DNA of 64,000 bases from an uncultured Planctomycetales bacterium (GTDB lineage: Bacteria; Planctomycetota; Planctomycetia; Isosphaerales; Isosphaeraceae). Of the stretch, positions 52,382 to 63,529 are shown piece by piece (positions within the stretch are counted from its first letter, which is position 1; each line of letters opens with the position of its first letter). The stretch lies in the NCBI GenBank assembly GCA_903926465.1, contig CAIYJE010000126.1, positions 1 through 64,000 of the forward strand, in the 5' to 3' direction. The notes under the pieces are model-generated. The model worked only from the letters and a program-made list of their open reading frames with translations, made no database searches and was not told the DNA's origin. The position numbers were made by a program, and so were the translations under genes.

Positions 52382-55300
52382 TCACAGGCTTGGGGCAGGG
52401 CTTACTTCCGCTGGCTTAGGCTCTGCCGGAGCAGGAGTTTCCGGAACCGGCTTAACCTCAGCAGGAGCGGGATCCCCTTCGGCAGGCTTGGCATCCGCAG
52501 GAGCGGGAACAGCAGGCTCTGGCTGTTCGGGCTTGGCCTCGGTTGGAGCCGGTGCAGCCGGCTCTTCCGTGGGCTTAGCGTCCGGGGCCGGAGTGGCGGG
52601 CTCTGCCGGCTTTACTTCGGCGGCAGGAACTTCAGGCTGGGGCTCGTGGGTTGTGGGCGCTGTGGTGGCTGGAACAACGGCAGGTGCCGGCTCATCCACC
52701 GGGGCAGCAGGAACCTCTTGTCCCATCTTCTCAAGGTAGTACGCCAGCAATGGGCGAAGCGGGGTCTGGGGCTTGATCTCCAAGGCACGGCGGAAGTGGG
52801 TGGCCGCCCCCTCTTGCAACACAGCGCCGTTAGCATCTCGAGTATCCAACGCAGCCCCGGATTCAAGCTGACAGAAGCCAAGTTCTGCCTGCCATTCGGC
52901 GTAGGTGTCAATCAAGCCAGGCTGCTCAGGGGTTCCAGCTACTTCCATGATCGATCGGAGCGCGGGGATTGCCTGACCGTTGAGCATTTCACGAGCAGCG
53001 TTCAGTGTTTGCTCGGTCTCAGCGGCCCGAATGAAAGGAAGCGTGTAATTATTCCAGTAACGGGTGGTCATGGAATAATTGCCCAGCAGAAGGTGCACCA
53101 GGCCATTTCTGTACCCGGCCCGGGCGAGCTTGAGACCAGGGGTGGCGCCGTCTACCCCCAGAGATTCGTCATTGGCCGTTGTTCCTTCCAGCAAGTCAAA
53201 CGCCTCGTTCGGCTGGCCGGTCTGGCAGTACAGGTCCACCAGTGCGAACCGAAGCTGAGCCATGCTGAAACCGGCATTCTCTGCGTCTTTGAAATACTGG
53301 ATGGCCGTGGCCGGATACCCACTCTGACTCGCAAGATTGGCCTGCTGAACCGGACCCGCGGAATTGGCGGCCGCATAATCACTGAGCTGGTCCTGGAACT
53401 GAGCATATTGCTCATCCAAGCGAGTGAGTTGTTGCTCAAGCACTTCGGGGAAGGTCGACCCCATGAGCTTTCGAGCAGCCTCCAGGTGAGTGCGTTCCAG
53501 GTCGAGAGCATTGTTATTGTCATAAAGGCCCGCGATTTCCCGGTGCAGGTTACCCAGCCGAATGTTTGACTGGGGCGTGTTGGGAGGCGCGGAGGTGACA
53601 ATGGCAAAGTTGAGTGCCGATACTCGCTGGCGGTATCGGAAGTTCGAAAAAGTCCGGGGAACGGTGGTGCCCGTTTTTGCGGTGCTGGTGAGGATCTGGT
53701 TTTCCAGAAGCGTCAGAACCCCGTAGGCCTGTGAGAGAAGTTCATAGGCCGAGGAATCGTCTGGATTCTTGACGAGCGCCAGACGGGCATCTCGAATGGC
53801 AAGCAAGCAACGCGCGGGATCGAGCGGAGCCTCTGGATTCGCGGGGTTCGTGAGCCAGCGACCACCCGAATTGATCCGGGGCTGGGGCGGCCTCAGGGCA
53901 CGATACTGCAGAATGCCGTCCATCCAGGTCGAGGCGGTTGGCGGCCGTTCGGGACTTGAAATGCTGGTGGTGCTGCGGAAGACAAGAATCTCTGGATCAA
54001 GCTGTGCAGACTTGAACTGAGCAAGATCCGGCAATTCGGCGATATCCGCTCGTCCAAAAACGATCGCATTTCCACCGTCATGGATCGGCAGCCAGTCTGC
54101 GCTGTTCATCAAGGATCGGTAGATGGCACCGAATTCCTGGGGCACAACCACGGCAGAGATCGGTCGGGCATCACGCTCGTATCCGTCCAGAATTTTCGAC
54201 CAGGTGGCCTTATCACCGTCTCTCAAAGCGATTCGCAGGCTCTCAAGTTCCGCTTGTTGCGCCGAAGTGAAAAGCCCGTGGCGATTGTCCAGGTAAGACT
54301 GGTGCTTGGGATCACGCCAAAGCTGGGCATCACCAATTGAGCGGGTGAGACCAAGCACATTACCCTGGATTCCAGAGTCTCGCAAGAAGTCCGCAGTCTC
54401 AAAAGCAAGCTTTGAGTCGTCATAACCAAGCCCGAAGGTATCGCCCTCAACGCTCTTGTAGCCGGTTACAGCCATGGCAATGAACGCGCAGGTTGCCAGA
54501 ATTGTGAGAGCTCGGCCCCCGTCAGAGAACAGTTTCCACTTTGCGCTGGCATGGCCGGCGGTTCCGAAGGTGTCTTGAAACCACTCTTGACCATTCAGGC
54601 CAAGTACGGCGGCAAACACCAGCGCAAATGGTGGTGCCGTGCGGACCAAGCCGGCCCAAACCAAGGCAGCGACGATAAACATCAGGAACCGGGCCAGGGA
54701 AAAACGTCGCCAGTTCAGAGCAAACGAGGCGAAAACCCCAAGAATGGTCAACACATAAAAGAGTAGGAACGCGTTGGATGTTCCCGGACCACCCGTTCGG
54801 TCAAAGTACTCGCGGCTCAGCCGATCGAAAAAACCGACATCGTCGCTGATCAGGCTGGTCGCCTGACCGAACCAGCGTGGCAGGATGTCTCCAAACGGCT
54901 TGAACGCGGTCTGGAAAATCCAGAGGGTCGAAGGGTTTACCAGGCAGGCCAGAGCCGAAGCGCCCAAAATTCCCAGCGGCAGAAACGGCGATACCGAAGT
55001 ACGGGCCATCGCCACCGAAATCGTCTGACCGGCAGCCCAGCCCGCCAGAATCAGAAGTCCGAACGCGAAGTTAGGAGCAATATTCGCCCAGACTGCAAAG
55101 AGCACCGGCAACCCCCAGAGCAGCCGACCACGTCCAAGCTCTGAGGCACGGAACAAAATGACCAGTTCGAGCGCCAGAAACACCAATCCCCAGGATTCGG
55201 GGTCAACGGCGTTTTTGCCGATGGCAATTCCACCCACCGAGGGCTGAAACCCTTGGCCCGAGGGCACAAAAATCCCCCCCAGCGCCAGTAATACACACAC

Positions 55301-55801
55301 CGCCAACCACCAGAGCCCCGGCCCCTTCCGGCGGATCGTCAAAATGAGTGCCGCCGCCAGCGTCACCAGCAGGGCATTGATGAGAACCAGGGCCGAGGCG
55401 CCGGCAAAGGCACCTCGATCAGGATAATCGGGCGACTGAAACAGCCCGGAAACCGTGTGGTAAAGACTTGAATTCGCAACTTCGAACAACCAAGGAATAT
55501 TCACCCACCGCTGGCCAGATTGCGAAAACGAGAGCGTGTCAGAGTTCACTGGCCCACCAGCCAGTATGGAGTCGCCAGACCGCAGTAGCCCCCAGATGCC
55601 AGACTGCGTGATTGGGCGTATGCAAGCGATAAAAACGAGCGCGAGCACAAAGCCGACCACAAACCGGTCAATATAACGATTCCAGCCCAGAATTCCTTCG
55701 GGTGTGGCTCTCAGAAGCGCTTCTTGCGTTTTCTTGGAAACCGCTGAAGCCTCAGTGCCAGTCCGTTCAGAGGTCGATCCCGTTGCCACCGGTTCACTCA
55801 T
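52382..55801 (-). CDS. Giant membrane protein with TPR-like domain and Pro/Ala/Glu/Lys-rich tail
   Basis: 1139 residues. After about 45 polar residues come roughly ten membrane helices (about 46-65, 140-165, 170-190 and on to about 465), with the first loop containing the SGDSILAGGPVNSDTLSFSQSG stretch expected outside the cytoplasm, as in GT-C glycosyltransferases. A soluble domain (about 490-1030) has TPR-like helices, including QQANLASQSGYPATAIQYF and AQLRFALVDLYCQTGQPNEAFDLLEG. The last 105 residues are a low-complexity tail built from PAPAEVKPAE-like units. I do not recognise a catalytic motif. It is likely an envelope-glycan enzyme or scaffold, since it is convergent with the YfhO-like pair and upstream of a GT2 gene. 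Confidence 0.78.
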   Translation of the reverse strand: MSEPVATGSTSERTGTEASAVSKKTQEALLRATPEGILGWNRYIDRFVVGFVLALVFIACIRPITQSGIWGLLRSGDSILAGGPVNSDTLSFSQSGQRWVNIPWLFEVANSSLYHTVSGLFQSPDYPDRGAFAGASALVLINALLVTLAAALILTIRRKGPGLWWLAVCVLLALGGIFVPSGQGFQPSVGGIAIGKNAVDPESWGLVFLALELVILFRASELGRGRLLWGLPVLFAVWANIAPNFAFGLLILAGWAAGQTISVAMARTSVSPFLPLGILGASALACLVNPSTLWIFQTAFKPFGDILPRWFGQATSLISDDVGFFDRLSREYFDRTGGPGTSNAFLLFYVLTILGVFASFALNWRRFSLARFLMFIVAALVWAGLVRTAPPFALVFAAVLGLNGQEWFQDTFGTAGHASAKWKLFSDGGRALTILATCAFIAMAVTGYKSVEGDTFGLGYDDSKLAFETADFLRDSGIQGNVLGLTRSIGDAQLWRDPKHQSYLDNRHGLFTSAQQAELESLRIALRDGDKATWSKILDGYERDARPISAVVVPQEFGAIYRSLMNSADWLPIHDGGNAIVFGRADIAELPDLAQFKSAQLDPEILVFRSTTSISSPERPPTASTWMDGILQYRALRPPQPRINSGGRWLTNPANPEAPLDPARCLLAIRDARLALVKNPDDSSAYELLSQAYGVLTLLENQILTSTAKTGTTVPRTFSNFRYRQRVSALNFAIVTSAPPNTPQSNIRLGNLHREIAGLYDNNNALDLERTHLEAARKLMGSTFPEVLEQQLTRLDEQYAQFQDQLSDYAAANSAGPVQQANLASQSGYPATAIQYFKDAENAGFSMAQLRFALVDLYCQTGQPNEAFDLLEGTTANDESLGVDGATPGLKLARAGYRNGLVHLLLGNYSMTTRYWNNYTLPFIRAAETEQTLNAAREMLNGQAIPALRSIMEVAGTPEQPGLIDTYAEWQAELGFCQLESGAALDTRDANGAVLQEGAATHFRRALEIKPQTPLRPLLAYYLEKMGQEVPAAPVDEPAPAVVPATTAPTTHEPQPEVPAAEVKPAEPATPAPDAKPTEEPAAPAPTEAKPEQPEPAVPAPADAKPAEGDPAPAEVKPVPETPAPAEPKPAEVSPAPSL

Positions 55802-56068: not shown

Positions 56069-56788
56069 ATGCGCATCCTCACGGCGATTCCGGTTTACAA
56101 CGAGGAGCAGTATCTTCAGGGGGTTCTGCAGGCCACACTCAAATACGCAGACAATGTGCTGGTGGTGGATGACGGCTCAACGGACCGTACCCCAGAACTG
56201 CTCCGGGAGTTTCCTCAGGTCTCCGTGGTTCGTCACTCCCAGAACTCTGGCTACGGGGCAGCCCTGAAAACGGCTTTCCGGCAGACGATTGAAGGGGGCT
56301 ATGACGGCCTGGTCACGCTGGACTGCGACGGCCAGCATGAACCGGCTATGATCCCGGAGATGGCTGCCCCCCTGGCTCAATTTGATGTGGTGTCTGGAAG
56401 TCGATACCTCAAGGTGTTCGATCCCAGTCAGGCACCTCCCCCCGAGCGCAGAAAGATCAACACCGAGGTTACCCGGTGGCTTAATGAGTGCCTTGGCTTT
56501 CAGCTGACTGACGCGTTCTGCGGATTCAAGGCCTATCGTCGCACCTCTCTTGAAGGGTTCGACCTCACGGTGCCTGGTTACGCAATGCCCCTGGAACTTT
56601 GGGTCCAGGCCGCGGCTCACGGTCTCAAAATCACTGAGATTGCTGTCCCGCTGATCTACCTCGACGAGAAACGTGCCTTCGGTGGCGCGTTAGATGACCC
56701 CACCTACCGTTTGAATCATTATCGAGAGGTGTTTCAGACGGCTCTTACCCGCAGTGGACTGCAAGCGGCCGGGAGCTGTGCTGGATGA
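56069..56788 (+). CDS. GT2 glycosyltransferase (dolichol-phosphate-mannose-synthase-like)
   Basis: 239 residues. AIPVYNEEQYLQGVLQ, VLVVDDGSTDRTPELL and NSGYGAALKTAF form the nucleotide-sugar-binding half of the GT-A fold; TLDCDGQHEP is the metal-binding DxD-type region and SGSRYLK with FCGFKAYRR complete the polyprenyl-phosphate glycosyltransferase pattern. There are no membrane helices, so it probably works at the inner face of the membrane and moves a sugar to polyprenyl phosphate, feeding YfhO/GT-C enzymes nearby. The ATG at 56069 is preferred to a TTG three bases earlier. The stop overlaps the next gene's ATG (ATGA at 56785-56788), which implies translational coupling. Confidence 0.93.
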   Translation: MRILTAIPVYNEEQYLQGVLQATLKYADNVLVVDDGSTDRTPELLREFPQVSVVRHSQNSGYGAALKTAFRQTIEGGYDGLVTLDCDGQHEPAMIPEMAAPLAQFDVVSGSRYLKVFDPSQAPPPERRKINTEVTRWLNECLGFQLTDAFCGFKAYRRTSLEGFDLTVPGYAMPLELWVQAAAHGLKITEIAVPLIYLDEKRAFGGALDDPTYRLNHYREVFQTALTRSGLQAAGSCAG

Positions 56789-58392
56789 TGGGCCACCGTT
56801 TTCGGGCCCCGTCCACCGATGGCGGTGTGCTTGCCCAACCTCCCATTGACGAGTGCCCTGCGCTCGCTTGGTCTAACTTTCGGCGGCTCAACGCCTGGAA
56901 TCATGATTTCCAGGGACGAACCTCCGGAGAGCTTCGCCTCTTTGCGCGTCAGGAACTGATCCAGGGGAGCGTTGCCTACCTCGCTTCGATCAACCAACCC
57001 CATCCGAAGTTCGACCAAGCCCAACTCGAACGTCCCTTGGTTCTGAGCGGCCATCAGCCAGAGCTTTATCATCCAGGCGTCTGGGTCAAAAATTTCGTGG
57101 GTGCCCACGTTGCACGCTCGATGGGGGCCCTTTCCGCACACATCATTGTGGATAACGATCTGCCCAAAGCGGCCGCCGTCCGAGTGCCAACCCGTCGCAA
57201 TCAAGCGCTCCACACGACCTCGGTCGAATTTGACCACAAGAACCCGGAAGCCCCGTTTGAGTGCTGGCTGCTCGCAAACGCGGACGTGTTTCAATCGTTC
57301 CCCACACGCGTTCAAGCAACCATGGATGGGCTCGTCCAGGACCCGCTCCTGACCAAGTTTTGGCCAGTTGCCGCCACGCAAATGGCCAACCACAAGCCTG
57401 TGGGAATAGGTTTTGCCACAGCTCGCCGTTCGGTCGAGCTAGACTGGGGGATTTCCAACTTCGATATCCCTTTAAGCGTACTCTGCCAGACAGAGTCGTT
57501 CCTCTGGTTCTTCTGCCACCTGATTGCCCACCTCGACCGGTTTCGCACCATCCACAATCAGGCACTTGAGGCTTATCGCCAGGCTAATCGGATCCGGAGC
57601 CGTAACCATCCGGTGCCTCCGTTGCGAGAGCAGGGAGAATGGCGGGAGGCTCCGTTCTGGGTCTGGAGAGATGGGAATGCCCGCCGACGCTCGCTGATGG
57701 TTGCAAGCCGAGGGGACGAACTGCTGCTGAGAATCTCAGGTGAAACCGAAGAGTTCCTCCGCTTGCCGCTCAGCGAGACTCAAACGGCTCAGCAGGCGGT
57801 GGAACAACTCAAAGCCTTGCCAGGCCAGGGGATTGCACTCAGAACTCGGGCCCTGACCACCACGCTCTTCTCTCGGCTGATCCTCAGTGACCTGTTCATT
57901 CACGGCATTGGAGGGGCCAAGTATGACCAACTTGGCGACACCATTCTCGAACGCTTCTTTGGTATGGAACCACCGGGGTTCCTGACCCTGTCGCTCACGC
58001 TCTGGCTGGGCCTTCCCCAGCACCAAGTCACGGCCGAATCCAGACGGGCCCTCAAGCAGAAGATTCGCGATCTGATTTTCAACCCAGATCGCCACGTGCC
58101 ACCGTTGAGCTTGGATCAGGCGACCCCGTTGATCGAACGCAAGCATGCGGCCATTCAGGGGCCGGTTGAAACTCACTTCCAGCGCGCCCATCGGTGCCGA
58201 ACCATCAACGAGTGCAACCGATTACTGGCCCCGTTTGTGCGGGAAGAACTTCTGAAACTTCGCCAGGAAGAGATCAAGATTGATCGAGAACTGCATGAAG
58301 ACCGCTGGGCCCGGTATCGCGAATATCCATCGATTCTGTTTTCAGAAGCCAGGCTCGCCCAAGCCTTTTCGGCCTTTGCACTTACCCCCTGA
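56785..58392 (+). CDS. Unknown cytoplasmic protein with SGHQPELYHPG motif, possibly BshC-related
   Basis: 535 residues with no signal peptide or membrane helix. It overlaps the GT2 gene by four bases (ATGA), so the two are translated together. The strongest motif is LVLSGHQPELYHPGVWVKNF (about 85-104), followed about 20 residues on by IIVDNDLPKAAAVRVP. This order resembles the GQQ...GPLYT...K region and the ED(H)DF region of BshC, the cysteine-adding enzyme of bacillithiol synthesis, and the length (about 540) also fits; this is a by-eye analogy, not a family assignment. A helical C-terminal part (LRQEEIKIDRELHEDRW) may be coiled coil. Function unknown. The following GNAT gene lies 323 bases away. 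Confidence 0.72.
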   Translation: MMGHRFRAPSTDGGVLAQPPIDECPALAWSNFRRLNAWNHDFQGRTSGELRLFARQELIQGSVAYLASINQPHPKFDQAQLERPLVLSGHQPELYHPGVWVKNFVGAHVARSMGALSAHIIVDNDLPKAAAVRVPTRRNQALHTTSVEFDHKNPEAPFECWLLANADVFQSFPTRVQATMDGLVQDPLLTKFWPVAATQMANHKPVGIGFATARRSVELDWGISNFDIPLSVLCQTESFLWFFCHLIAHLDRFRTIHNQALEAYRQANRIRSRNHPVPPLREQGEWREAPFWVWRDGNARRRSLMVASRGDELLLRISGETEEFLRLPLSETQTAQQAVEQLKALPGQGIALRTRALTTTLFSRLILSDLFIHGIGGAKYDQLGDTILERFFGMEPPGFLTLSLTLWLGLPQHQVTAESRRALKQKIRDLIFNPDRHVPPLSLDQATPLIERKHAAIQGPVETHFQRAHRCRTINECNRLLAPFVREELLKLRQEEIKIDRELHEDRWARYREYPSILFSEARLAQAFSAFALTP

Positions 58393-58715
58393 AGGAACCA
58401 AGCCCAGAAACGCCAGAATCATCGCCCACGTCAACTTCAGGCTCACCAAAACGTGAACACTACCGGCGTTGAAAGATTTGGCCTTGTTTGGCCCATGATC
58501 CTGAGACCACCCGTCACATGTTCAGTATCCAGCAAGTCGGCATCATTCATTTTCGGATGTTCCATCCAACGTAACACCATTCAGCCAGAAGCTTTAGAAC
58601 ACGCGGCAACCTCTGAAGCGAATGAATTTTCCACCCCACCGGCGATTTCGATCCGCTTCCCCACTAGAATAGTGTATTGAACGGTTCGTAAGCGTCCGAG
58701 GCAAAAAAGTTTCCC
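58393..58715. other. Intergenic region, nothing recognised
   Basis: 323 bases between the SGHQPELYHPG protein and the Eis-like GNAT. No gene, terminator or repeat was recognised, so whether they share a transcript is open. Confidence 0.5.
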
Positions 58716-60017
58716 ATGGGAATTCAGGTGTCTGACAGACCAGGTACGAACGCGGTCCCATCCGATGTGCGTCTTCCATTTCGCCGGGGCCCGGTCGAAT
58801 TTACGGCTGCCACCGAGGCAGACCATGAATCGATTTACCAGACGCTGCTGCACGTTTTTCACGGCCCAGAGCGCGAGGTTTTCCTCGGAACCCTGAGCGA
58901 ACCGGGGTATCGACCTGACCAGCGTTTACTGGTGAAGGTGGAAGGCCGAGTGGCCAGCCATGTTCACCTGACTGAGCGGGCCATGCGGTTTGGCCAGCAT
59001 GTGCTTCCCCTGCAGGGCGTGATGTGGGTGGGTACGTTGCCCGAGTATCGTCGGCACGGGTTTGCCCAAAACCTGTTGCGGCTGGCCGGGGGCCGAGCCC
59101 GCCAGACCGGCGCCATGGTACAAACCGCCACGACGAATCTTCCCGCGTTTTACCAGTCGCTGGGCTGGGCCATTTGCGGACGTCATTCGCTGGGCAAACT
59201 GCCAAGTCGAAGTTTGCCCACGGGAGGCGAGGGGTCGCCTGATCCACGTGCCGGCTCCTGGCATGTTCGGCCCTGGCGCCAGGTTGAACTGCAAGACCTG
59301 ATGACTCTTTACGACCGGCAATTTGCCTCGGTGCATGGCTCGGTTGTGCGCAGTGAAGAGTACTGGCGCTGGCTCATTGGCCGCAAACTGGCCCACGTTA
59401 TTTGGGTGGCGTGCGTGGGTGAAAAGGTCCACGGGTACGCGTTTGTCAAAGACCACCGGGTTCTGGAAATTGCCACCGACCCTGCGTACCCGTTTGCACT
59501 TCAGGCCTTGCTTGGGCGAGTTCGTTCCGAGGCGTTGGAGCGGGCTTACCCGCACGTCACCATTCATGCGCCACCAGGGCACCCCGCTCTGGAAGTTGTG
59601 CGTGACGTTGGCGGCAAGGCCCTGGACGAAGAAGAGTCCGAGGGCGAGGTCTCGCTGTACCATATTCCGAGCGCCCAGGCCCTGCTCACGGCGCTGATGC
59701 CAGATTTTCTGGAGCGGCTCCGCCAGACCAAGCAGAGCTATCCCCTGAATCTCGGTCTGACCGTAGGGGACCAGAAACTGCTGATTGAGTTTGCCAGTGC
59801 GGAATCTGGAACCGTTGAGCTTGAACGTGTCGGTCGGCGACACTTGACGATGAGCCAGTCCGCATTCACCCGGCTCGTCCTTGGCCATACCGGCCTGGAC
59901 GCGGCGATGACGGTGGACGGCGTGACGGCCTCCACCACCACCGCCGTCGATCTGGCCCGCATCCTGTTCCCCCGCTTCGCCCTTTGGAGAAGCCCACTGG
60001 ATAGCGTCACAGCCTGA
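58716..60017 (+). CDS. GNAT acetyltransferase, Eis-like three-part architecture
   Basis: 433 residues. The N-terminal GNAT domain has FTAATEADHESIYQTLLHVFHG at its start and the acetyl-CoA loop VGTLPEYRRHGFAQNLLRLA (about 108-127, RRHGFA being the R/QxxGxG/A motif). A second, diverged GNAT-like region follows (about 185-310), and the last about 110 residues (LNLGLTVGDQKLLIEFASA onwards) resemble the SCP2-like tail of Eis-type enzymes. Eis acetylates amines of aminoglycosides and peptides, but the substrate here is unknown. Cytoplasmic. It lies after the GT2 pair, on the same strand, and its stop is followed by a hairpin shared with the convergent SRPBCC gene. Confidence 0.88.
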   Translation: MGIQVSDRPGTNAVPSDVRLPFRRGPVEFTAATEADHESIYQTLLHVFHGPEREVFLGTLSEPGYRPDQRLLVKVEGRVASHVHLTERAMRFGQHVLPLQGVMWVGTLPEYRRHGFAQNLLRLAGGRARQTGAMVQTATTNLPAFYQSLGWAICGRHSLGKLPSRSLPTGGEGSPDPRAGSWHVRPWRQVELQDLMTLYDRQFASVHGSVVRSEEYWRWLIGRKLAHVIWVACVGEKVHGYAFVKDHRVLEIATDPAYPFALQALLGRVRSEALERAYPHVTIHAPPGHPALEVVRDVGGKALDEEESEGEVSLYHIPSAQALLTALMPDFLERLRQTKQSYPLNLGLTVGDQKLLIEFASAESGTVELERVGRRHLTMSQSAFTRLVLGHTGLDAAMTVDGVTASTTTAVDLARILFPRFALWRSPLDSVTA

Positions 60018-62320: not shown

Positions 62321-63493
62321 TCAACCAGCCTCGTACCAGCGTCCATCCACACAGGTCCGAACGATGTCAATTTGGGTTCGAGCCGTGGAATGGTCGGGCA
62401 ACTCGGACAAGCGAAAAAGCACCATATTGGCTGGCGATCCGACGGTCAGAGCAGGGGGTTGGTGCCTAAGCAGCCGCGCAGGGTTGGCGGTAACGGTAGA
62501 CCACGCGGTTTCTAGCGGCAGACCGGCCCAGTCAATCAGGGTGGCAACGCCTTGGGCCAGGCTCTGGTTGGCACCGGCCAGATACGAAGTCCCGGTTACG
62601 ACAATCTTTCCTTCGTGATCCACGGACCAAGGGCCGTAGGTGCCGGTTGGCAGCCCGGCCAGCGGGCTAAAATCGCTCACCAAAAGAATCTTTTCGACCC
62701 CCTTGGCACGAACCAGAACCTGCAAAATCGACGAACCCAGGTGGTACCGGTCGGCAATGAGCGAGGCGAACAACTGCGGCTCGGCCGCCTGATCCCAGAT
62801 TGGGTTGGGGTGGCGAGGCAACTGGTTTAAAATCCCGTTCCCCAGGTGCGTGCTCAGAGAAGCCCCCGCCCGGCAGGCTGCGGCAATGGTGGCACTGCTG
62901 GCAGCGGTATGCCCAAGCGCCACGGTTACCCCCTGGCGACACAACCACTCGATCGCCTCGATTGCGCCCGAACGCTCAGGCGCCAGGGTGACCAGAATGA
63001 TCCTCCGGCCGCTGGCCTCTTGCCACTGGGCGAACTCGGCAAGATCTGAATCTCTGACATGCTCAAGTGGGTGCGCACCCCGGTAGCCATCGCACTCAGA
63101 GATCCAAGGCCCTTCCAGGTGGATCCCCAGCACCATCGCGGCAATTTCTGGCCAACGATCGCAGGCTTGCCGGATAGTTCGCAGGCCATGGGTTGTGGCA
63201 GATTGAGAAGCTGTGATCAGGGTTGGACAAAGCCGAGCCGTACCAAACGCAGCATGCGCCCGGACAATTTCGGCCACCTGTTCGATGGTCAGCGTTTCGT
63301 CGGAAAATGAGATACCCCATCGGCCGTTGGTCTGGAGGTCCCAGAAGGCAGGGGCAACAAACAGATCCGTACCGGTTCGAGAGGGGTTGGCATCTGGAAT
63401 AAACACGCGACCAATGCGTGATTCATCCAACTCCAGGTGAACGGGGGCTAGGCCAAACCCAACACCCCGGCCTTGAACCTGATCATTCAACAT
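62321..63493 (-). CDS. N-acetylglucosamine-6-phosphate deacetylase-like amidohydrolase
   Basis: 390 residues from the ATG at 63493, preceded by AGGGA; a start at 63520 would add nine residues. It matches NagA, which removes acetate from N-acetylglucosamine-6-phosphate in the cytoplasm: IHLEGPWI (metal Glu), then GYRGAH, LGHTAASSATIAAA (metal His), STHLGNGI (second metal His; NagA usually reads THLFNAM) and VSDFSPLAG, the usual D-G block. The differences leave open another N-acetyl amino sugar. It follows pyrG by 36 bases on the same strand, so they may be co-transcribed. The terminator at 62270 on the other side may serve both strands. Confidence 0.88.
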   Translation of the reverse strand: MLNDQVQGRGVGFGLAPVHLELDESRIGRVFIPDANPSRTGTDLFVAPAFWDLQTNGRWGISFSDETLTIEQVAEIVRAHAAFGTARLCPTLITASQSATTHGLRTIRQACDRWPEIAAMVLGIHLEGPWISECDGYRGAHPLEHVRDSDLAEFAQWQEASGRRIILVTLAPERSGAIEAIEWLCRQGVTVALGHTAASSATIAAACRAGASLSTHLGNGILNQLPRHPNPIWDQAAEPQLFASLIADRYHLGSSILQVLVRAKGVEKILLVSDFSPLAGLPTGTYGPWSVDHEGKIVVTGTSYLAGANQSLAQGVATLIDWAGLPLETAWSTVTANPARLLRHQPPALTVGSPANMVLFRLSELPDHSTARTQIDIVRTCVDGRWYEAG

Positions 63494-63529
63494 GGCTGTT
63501 CCCTGGCACCACGCATCCAAAGCGCATCG

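Follow-up and report, generated by a model that had tools for sequence, protein, structure and literature searches.

A GT2 glycosyltransferase paired with a remote homologue of BshC: candidate genes for a glycothiol-type pathway in Planctomycetia

The locus and the coupling of its genes

The window considered here, that is, the whole stretch of 64,000 nucleotides from an uncultured Planctomycetales bacterium of the Isosphaeraceae, carries a gene for a GT2 glycosyltransferase followed on the same strand by two further genes, one encoding a protein of 535 residues, referred to below as ORF535, and the other an Eis-like GNAT acetyltransferase (Table 1).

Table 1. Features of the locus, with positions in the window
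Feature	Position	Strand	Assignment
GT2 glycosyltransferase, 239 aa	56069..56788	+	PF00535 (Pfam), 94 bits; proposed functional replacement of BshA
ATGA stop/start overlap, GT2-ORF535	56785..56788	+	Seen in the sequence; likely translational coupling
ORF535, 535 aa	56785..58392	+	Predicted divergent BshC-fold (HUP/Rossmann) ligase; proposed amino acid (cysteine):glucosaminide ligase
ORF535 residues 89-103, GHQPELYHPGVWVKN	57049..57093	+	Counterpart of BshC TGQQ..GPLYT..K
ORF535 residues 123-125, DND	57151..57159	+	Counterpart of BshC DHD
ORF535 residues 364-381, ending HGIGGAKYD	57874..57927	+	Counterpart of BshC R....YVaGPxEIAY
Eis-like GNAT, 433 aa	58716..60017	+	Acetyltransf_9 (PF13527, 63 bits) and SCP2-like C-terminus; proposed N-acetylation step
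NagA-like gene	62321..63520	-	160.7 bits against TIGR00221

The gene positions and the overlap, in which the stop of GT2 coincides with the start of ORF535, are as described in an earlier, sequence-only reading of this DNA, which held that the two proteins must be made together. The overlap does make translational coupling likely, and it measures 4 bp or 1 bp in most Isosphaeraceae loci; the word "must" is nevertheless too strong, because the two genes are mostly separated by gaps of 0-400 bp in other families and are unlinked in some genomes. When the neighbourhoods of homologues were checked, GT2 was found upstream of ORF535, on the same strand and within 3 kb, at 131 of the 142 loci with enough flanking sequence; the pairing is not a matter of chance, and the association of this protein with a glycosyltransferase stands. 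Other neighbours (a TPR/membrane protein, a superoxide dismutase, NIF3, kinases, sigma factors and others) occur at too few loci to belong to the system, and those of the unlinked ORF535 genes in one family, f52, namely GMP synthase and a Cache protein, gave no lead.

By profile, the solved structure nearest to GT2 is dolichol-phosphate mannose synthase (5mlz, E 4e-23), and the protein is also close to undecaprenyl-P-Ara4FN transferase, resembling the polyprenyl-phosphate sugar synthases. It shares the GT2 catalytic domain with dolichol-phosphate mannose synthase and related GT2 enzymes, but in the 239-residue protein of the window this domain alone is matched, and ORF535 is its strict partner. 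It matches PF00535 and no BshA model (TIGR03999, GT4 family, cut-off 273.7 bits).

The profile of the GNAT protein matches Eis-family structures, and the protein shares with Eis both the GNAT domain and the SCP2-like C-terminal domain, but it scores only 17 bits against the Eis equivalog NF002368, whose cut-off is 576 bits, and, unlike Eis, it is a dedicated neighbour of ORF535, directly downstream of it at 46 of the 48 GNAT-bearing loci. As a universal component of the system it was rejected, being absent from most families in the phylum sample. The acetyltransferase that the earlier reading noted nearby is a dedicated but optional third member, adjacent almost wherever it is found.

ORF535 as a remote homologue of BshC

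Searches of Pfam, NCBIfam and PHROG returned no matches for ORF535: the cut-off of the BshC family PF10079 was not reached, NCBIfam gave no match to MshC or CysRS, and direct phmmer and profile searches against PDB sequences found nothing. Its AlphaFold (AF2) model (pLDDT 96.5, pTM 0.92), on the other hand, has as its top Foldseek match in the PDB the BshC of B. subtilis (4wbd; E 2.1e-12, probability 1.00, full length), with a TM score of 0.55 over 560 columns and 11% identity; as modelled, the protein would have the overall fold of BshC and a long helix at residues 464-509, and the structural matches next in rank are class I LysRS (6e-7) and TyrRS. The profiles agree with the model: hhalign aligns ORF535 with the BshC profile over 401 collinear columns at 80% probability, with P 1.4e-5 and a score of 52.2. 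All 100 column shuffles score lower, the highest reaching 23.0, and unrelated families give 14-19. The match is weak when only close homologues are used (P 0.0009-0.009) and becomes firm when members of the divergent classes are added. From the predicted model and the profile alignment together we conclude that ORF535 and the bacillithiol ligase BshC are remotely homologous. The likeness, first seen by eye, was therefore correctly perceived, and the structure prediction proposed at the time as a check returned BshC, and not a different fold, as the best match.

ORF535 does contain the motifs SGHQPELYHPGVWVKN and IIVDNDLPKAAAVRVP, and the observation that their order and spacing repeat those of BshC is borne out by the shuffling control and by the fold. 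They are not chance, because their cores are invariant in 81 homologues (G89, H90, Q91, H96, G98, V99, W100, K102, D123 and D125). Within residues 89-103 the G, the second Q and the K are common to BshC; the BshC equivalents of D123 and D125 are conserved at 97-100%, and R364, G374 and Y380 are invariant in both families, the near-invariant residues held in common being G89, Q91, K102, D123, D125, R364, G374, Y380 and T405. ORF535 is like BshC (PF10079; PDB 4wbd) in fold, length, the order and spacing of its core motifs and a near-invariant set of G, Q, K, D..D, R, G and Y, but it departs from BshC in having no PF10079 match, in carrying GHQ for GQQ, HPG for TGP and a Gly for an invariant Glu (Q93, P101 and E349 of the BshC alignment being replaced by H90, G98 and G377), and in having a GT2 enzyme as its partner instead of the GT4 enzyme BshA. 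No cysteine-binding signature was identified in ORF535.

The deacetylase and the distribution of the genes

The sequence-only reading had pointed to the NagA-like gene as the deacetylase. That gene exists, but it falls under the cut-off of the NagA equivalog TIGR00221 (225.65 bits), and no gene family recurs widely at its position in related loci; the window's genome has instead an unlinked PIG-L gene (G000:C198:29638-30297) that scores 204.7 bits against the BshB1 model TIGR04001, over its curated equivalog cut-off of 182.5 bits, and the earlier choice of deacetylase was abandoned. The cut-off of TIGR04001 is passed in 37 of 50 ORF535 genomes, with 12 more at 152-182 bits (proteins of two divergent classes lie just under it, at 165-175 bits), bringing those with at least 150 bits to 49 of the 50; the BshB1 level is reached in 0 of 30 genomes that have neither system, where the best score is 122 bits, and among 14 control genomes only by Bacillus, Thermus and Deinobacterium. 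The BshB1-like deacetylases of ORF535 genomes group together in a single supported clade next to canonical BshB1, to which L213, an unrelated PIG-L, does not belong. At none of the loci read is one of their genes linked to ORF535, and genomes of the class also carry a second BshB1-like paralogue scoring 140-172 bits.

ORF535 occurs in every one of the 79 related genomes of good quality (96 of 99 when all relatives are counted), accompanied by GT2 in almost every genome of the class, and across the phylum a GT2 orthologue, with bimodal scores, occurs in 52 of the 54 ORF535-bearing genomes, even where the two are unlinked. Among 294 genomes, ORF535 is found in 54 and canonical BshC in 150 with an overlap of 0, an exclusion that runs by whole lineages and so reflects few independent events, which inflates the hypergeometric P. 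BshA is missing from 53 of the 54, the sole exception being the window's own genome, where a canonical bshB1-bshA pair stands without a PF10079 BshC match and ORF535 is the only BshC-type ligase detected. Glutathione was considered as the thiol of the class and rejected, GshB-type matches of about 170 bits being found in only 4 of 59 genomes and the remainder being weak ATP-grasp matches.

A proposed pathway and its alternatives

Bacillithiol is a protective thiol made by three enzymes, of which BshC is the cysteine:GlcN-malate ligase, and mycothiol is made in four steps, with an acetyltransferase acting last and a ligase of class I aminoacyl-tRNA synthetase-like fold. We think it reasonably probable that GT2, the BshB1-like enzyme and ORF535, the last as a BshC-type enzyme that adds an amino acid, form a parallel pathway resembling these two. 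GT2 would transfer N-acetylglucosamine to a small acceptor (the role of BshA); the unlinked BshB1-type PIG-L enzyme would take off the acetyl group (MshB/BshB); ORF535 would use ATP to activate an amino acid, for which cysteine is the likeliest candidate, and couple it to the glucosamine amine (BshC/MshC); and where the Eis-like GNAT lies next to the pair, as it does here and in some other lineages, it would acetylate the product (MshD). We infer the substrates and the thiol nature of the product, with cysteine probably the amino acid. The original idea of a thiol or aminoacyl-glycoconjugate pathway finds support in structure, profiles, co-occurrence and a BshB1-type deacetylase; the NagA-like identity that it had given to the deacetylase does not.

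As in the bacillithiol pathway BshA-BshB-BshC, a glycosyltransferase, a BshB1-type deacetylase and a BshC-fold ligase are all present, but here the glycosyltransferase is a GT2, the deacetylase gene is unlinked, canonical BshC never accompanies the system and BshA does so only in the window's genome; two of the three enzymes, BshA and BshC, have apparently been replaced and the middle one kept. The mycothiol pathway MshA-MshB-MshC-MshD likewise runs through four steps that end with an acetyltransferase and has in common a ligase of class I aminoacyl-tRNA synthetase-like fold, whereas the fold of ORF535 is nearer to BshC than to the tRNA synthetases, MshC is not matched in NCBIfam and the GNAT is Eis-like and optional. 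Because GT2 enzymes invert and BshA, as a GT4 enzyme, retains, following the general stereochemistry of the two families, the pathway may end in a glycothiol other than bacillithiol, whether beta-linked or different in some other way. Somewhat short of even confidence, we put forward the joint reading that an undescribed glycothiol is produced in Planctomycetia, and in several further lineages of planctomycetes, by means of GT2, the BshB1-like enzyme, the new BshC-type family and the Eis-like GNAT, this glycothiol being an amino-acid-glucosamine conjugate unlike bacillithiol or mycothiol, possibly beta-linked and N-acetylated. The idea is novel, because a published survey gives no documented or predicted thiol for Planctomycetes (PMC6282198); for this group GT2 and ORF535 may be the route to the cellular thiol. 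Concrete candidate genes for such a pathway are thereby named across a whole class, and it is explained why homology searches would miss them, ORF535 representing a new protein family that is universal in a bacterial class and nameless in Pfam and NCBIfam.

The main rival, which we regard as unlikely, is that ORF535 aminoacylates a polyprenyl- or other lipid-linked amino sugar supplied by GT2, which would modify the envelope without yielding a free thiol. PIG-L deacetylates GlcNAc-PI, and by analogy the BshB1-like enzyme would then deacetylate the lipid-linked sugar. The closeness of GT2 to dolichol-phosphate mannose synthase and undecaprenyl-P-Ara4FN transferase speaks for such chemistry, as does its clustering in family f52 with genes for a polyprenyl synthase and for an IspH-UbiA fusion, which would fit a lipid-linked acceptor; but related loci show no conserved flippase or membrane ligase next to the pair, the deacetylases of ORF535 genomes pass, among PIG-L models, only that of bacillithiol BshB1, and this reading would not explain why bacillithiol genes are so strictly excluded. 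We judge it very improbable that GT2 lies beside ORF535 by chance or for regulatory reasons: the tRNA synthetases that are the second-best structural matches of ORF535 would suit this view, but BshC outdoes them by five orders of magnitude, and both GT2, even where unlinked, and the BshB1-like protein track ORF535.

A different glycothiol must also be weighed against bacillithiol itself, which would be the product if GT2 made GlcNAc-malate by convergence and ORF535 were a very divergent BshC. The BshB1-type deacetylase agrees with this, as does the window's genome, in which canonical bshA and bshB1 occur without canonical bshC, so that ORF535 would complete the pathway. The differing stereochemistry of GT2 and GT4 enzymes, the replacement of several BshC invariant residues and the conservation of an extra acetyltransferase in some families all argue against it, and we consider it decidedly unlikely. 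Contamination as the origin of the contig bearing bshA was examined and rejected: its composition is the same, and its SerA is 66-78% identical to Isosphaeraceae copies.

Fold and family of the ORF535 protein

The gene for ORF535, a 535-residue protein proposed to be a divergent BshC-type ligase, has the bases ATGA in common with GT2, the glycosyltransferase gene just upstream, and is followed by GNAT, an Eis-like acetyltransferase gene; the gene coordinates and the motifs that the sequence-only reading had given were confirmed in the sequence. Searches of Pfam, NCBIfam, and PHROGs assign ORF535 to no family, and a search of PDB sequences gave no match. It is ubiquitous in its class: tblastn recovered it from 96 of 99 relatives and from all 79 genomes with a completeness of 90% or more and contamination of 5% or less, nearly always as one copy per genome, with 31–49% identity over most of its length, and the best 80 named matches in a survey of GTDB genomes carry planctomycete labels, save two marked just "bacterium". 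Its invariant residues group in GHQPELFHPGVWVKN, DND, the EAPFW.W region, and RALTTT...HGIGGAKYD.

Positions of the genes discussed
Feature	Contig or locus	Position	Strand
1139-aa protein	window	52382-55801	-
GT2	window	56069-56788	+
ORF535	window	56785-58392	+
GNAT	window	58716-60017	+
NagA-like amidohydrolase	window	62321-63520	-
bshB1-bshA pair	C178 (L163)	53527-55367	
bshA-bshB1-bshC operon	L198	3323-7558	-

The AlphaFold2 model of ORF535, built from 81 sequences (mean pLDDT 96.5, pTM 0.92), predicts a BshC-fold protein, with the top PDB match being BshC of Bacillus subtilis (4wbd; E 2.1e-12, probability 1.00, TM 0.55/0.54 over 560 columns), followed by class I lysyl-tRNA synthetase (6e-7) and then tyrosyl-tRNA synthetases. 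Sequence profiles agree with the structure: in an unguided local alignment with 29 planctomycete BshC proteins, GHQPELFHPGVW.KN pairs with TGQQaGL..GPLYT.YK and DND with DHD, and once members from divergent classes are added, the match extends over 401 columns (P 1.4e-5) and scores 52.2, whereas 100 column shuffles reach no more than 23.0 and unrelated families 14–19. Among the residues that hardly vary in either family are G89, Q91, K102, D123, D125, R364, G374, Y380, and T405; where the BshC alignment has Q93, P101, and E349, ORF535 carries H90, G98, and G377. We read the two proteins as members of one superfamily, probably with shared chemistry, but of different families, as the BshC model PF10079 does not recognize ORF535. 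A literature search, with most subscription papers and all preprints outside its reach, found no paper on the ORF535 family.

Partnership with GT2 and exclusion of bacillithiol genes

ORF535 belongs with GT2. Of 142 loci for which 900 bp or more of upstream sequence was available, a set in which some genomes are counted twice, 131 have GT2 no more than 3 kb upstream on the same strand, and 116 have it within 300 bp (71 and 66, respectively, of the 75 named GTDB loci alone). In a phylum sample of 294 genomes, GT2 orthologues, which are set well apart from other GT2 proteins (at least 235 versus at most 156 bits), were found in 52 of the 54 genomes with ORF535 and in one without it. Both genes are retained even where they are distant from each other, as in the family f52 and some genomes of the class, and their association is therefore not explicable by neighborhood alone. 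In f52, the GT2 orthologue stands alongside a HemW-like radical SAM protein, elongation factor P, a polyprenyl synthase, and an IspH-UbiA fusion (L186–L190).

The ORF535 system excludes bacillithiol genes. The same sample holds BshC (PF10079) in 150 genomes and BshA (TIGR03999) in 146, with both in 141; none of the 54 ORF535 genomes has BshC (hypergeometric P 3e-20, which overstates the number of independent events, since the two systems are divided between entire lineages), and BshA overlaps with ORF535 in the window's own genome only. There, a canonical, overlapping bshB1-bshA pair on the contig C178 exceeds both cut-offs (227.9 and 424.7 bits, respectively); no BshA above the cut-off turned up in the 58 other relatives that were tested. 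Contamination was ruled out for C178, as its composition matches the window and its SerA is Isosphaeraceae-like. Since this genome yielded no canonical BshC, ORF535 is the sole BshC-type ligase detected in it.

Other planctomycete classes have the canonical bshA-bshB1-bshC operon, and in L198 a SAM methyltransferase gene, possibly NmbA-like (N-methyl-bacillithiol), adjoins bshC. BshA and BshC occur in about half of the sampled phylum, yet the published survey lists no planctomycete thiol: no low-molecular-weight thiol is documented or predicted for Planctomycetes in Hiras et al. 2018 (PMC6282198). Planctomycetes are absent from the text of a 2025 BLAST survey for BshA, BshB, and BshC in 43 phyla (PMC12719100).

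Deacetylase, acetyltransferase, and the proposed pathway

PIG-L proteins, the deacetylase family that includes BshB1, are present in all 18 ORF535 genomes tested. One orthologous group, the sole PIG-L of genome G351, occurs in nearly all those compared; against the curated BshB1 cut-off of 182.5 bits, its members score 199–219 bits in six of eight cases and 165–175 in two divergent classes. Of 50 ORF535 genomes in a targeted survey, 37 passed this cut-off and 49 reached at least 150 bits. All 30 genomes with neither system stayed short of that level, their best score being 122 bits, and the only named controls in which the model matched were Bacillus, Thermus, and Deinobacterium. In a tree, the ORF535-associated deacetylases group into a single clade with support of 98/96, whose sister is the class's second BshB1-like paralogue; they adjoin canonical BshB1 and lie apart from other PIG-L proteins, this last separation having weak support. 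It is this BshB1-like protein that is the candidate pathway deacetylase, and not the NagA-like gene put forward in the sequence-only reading, whose 160.7 bits fall under the NagA equivalog cut-off of 225.65. Judging from the MshB–Mca pair, the second paralogue, found in several families (L220–L223, L226–L229), may be an S-conjugate amidase.

The Eis-like ACETYLTRANSFERASE gene is directly downstream of ORF535 in 46 of the 48 loci having it and is absent in several families, making GNAT a dedicated, optional component. In the pathway that we infer, GT2 would form a GlcNAc glycoside, the PIG-L enzyme would free its amine, ORF535 would attach cysteine with ATP, and GNAT would N-acetylate the product, much as MshD performs N-acetylation for mycothiol. 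The strongest alternative, a lipid-linked amino sugar, would fit the resemblance of GT2 to polyprenyl-phosphate sugar synthases and its position near isoprenoid genes in f52. We favor the thiol on two grounds: the deacetylase passes the bacillithiol model, and the ORF535 system excludes bacillithiol genes.

The window also encodes, divergent from GT2, a 1139-aa protein with a TPR-like C-terminal part; the N-terminal part of this protein is kept at the same place in many Isosphaeraceae.
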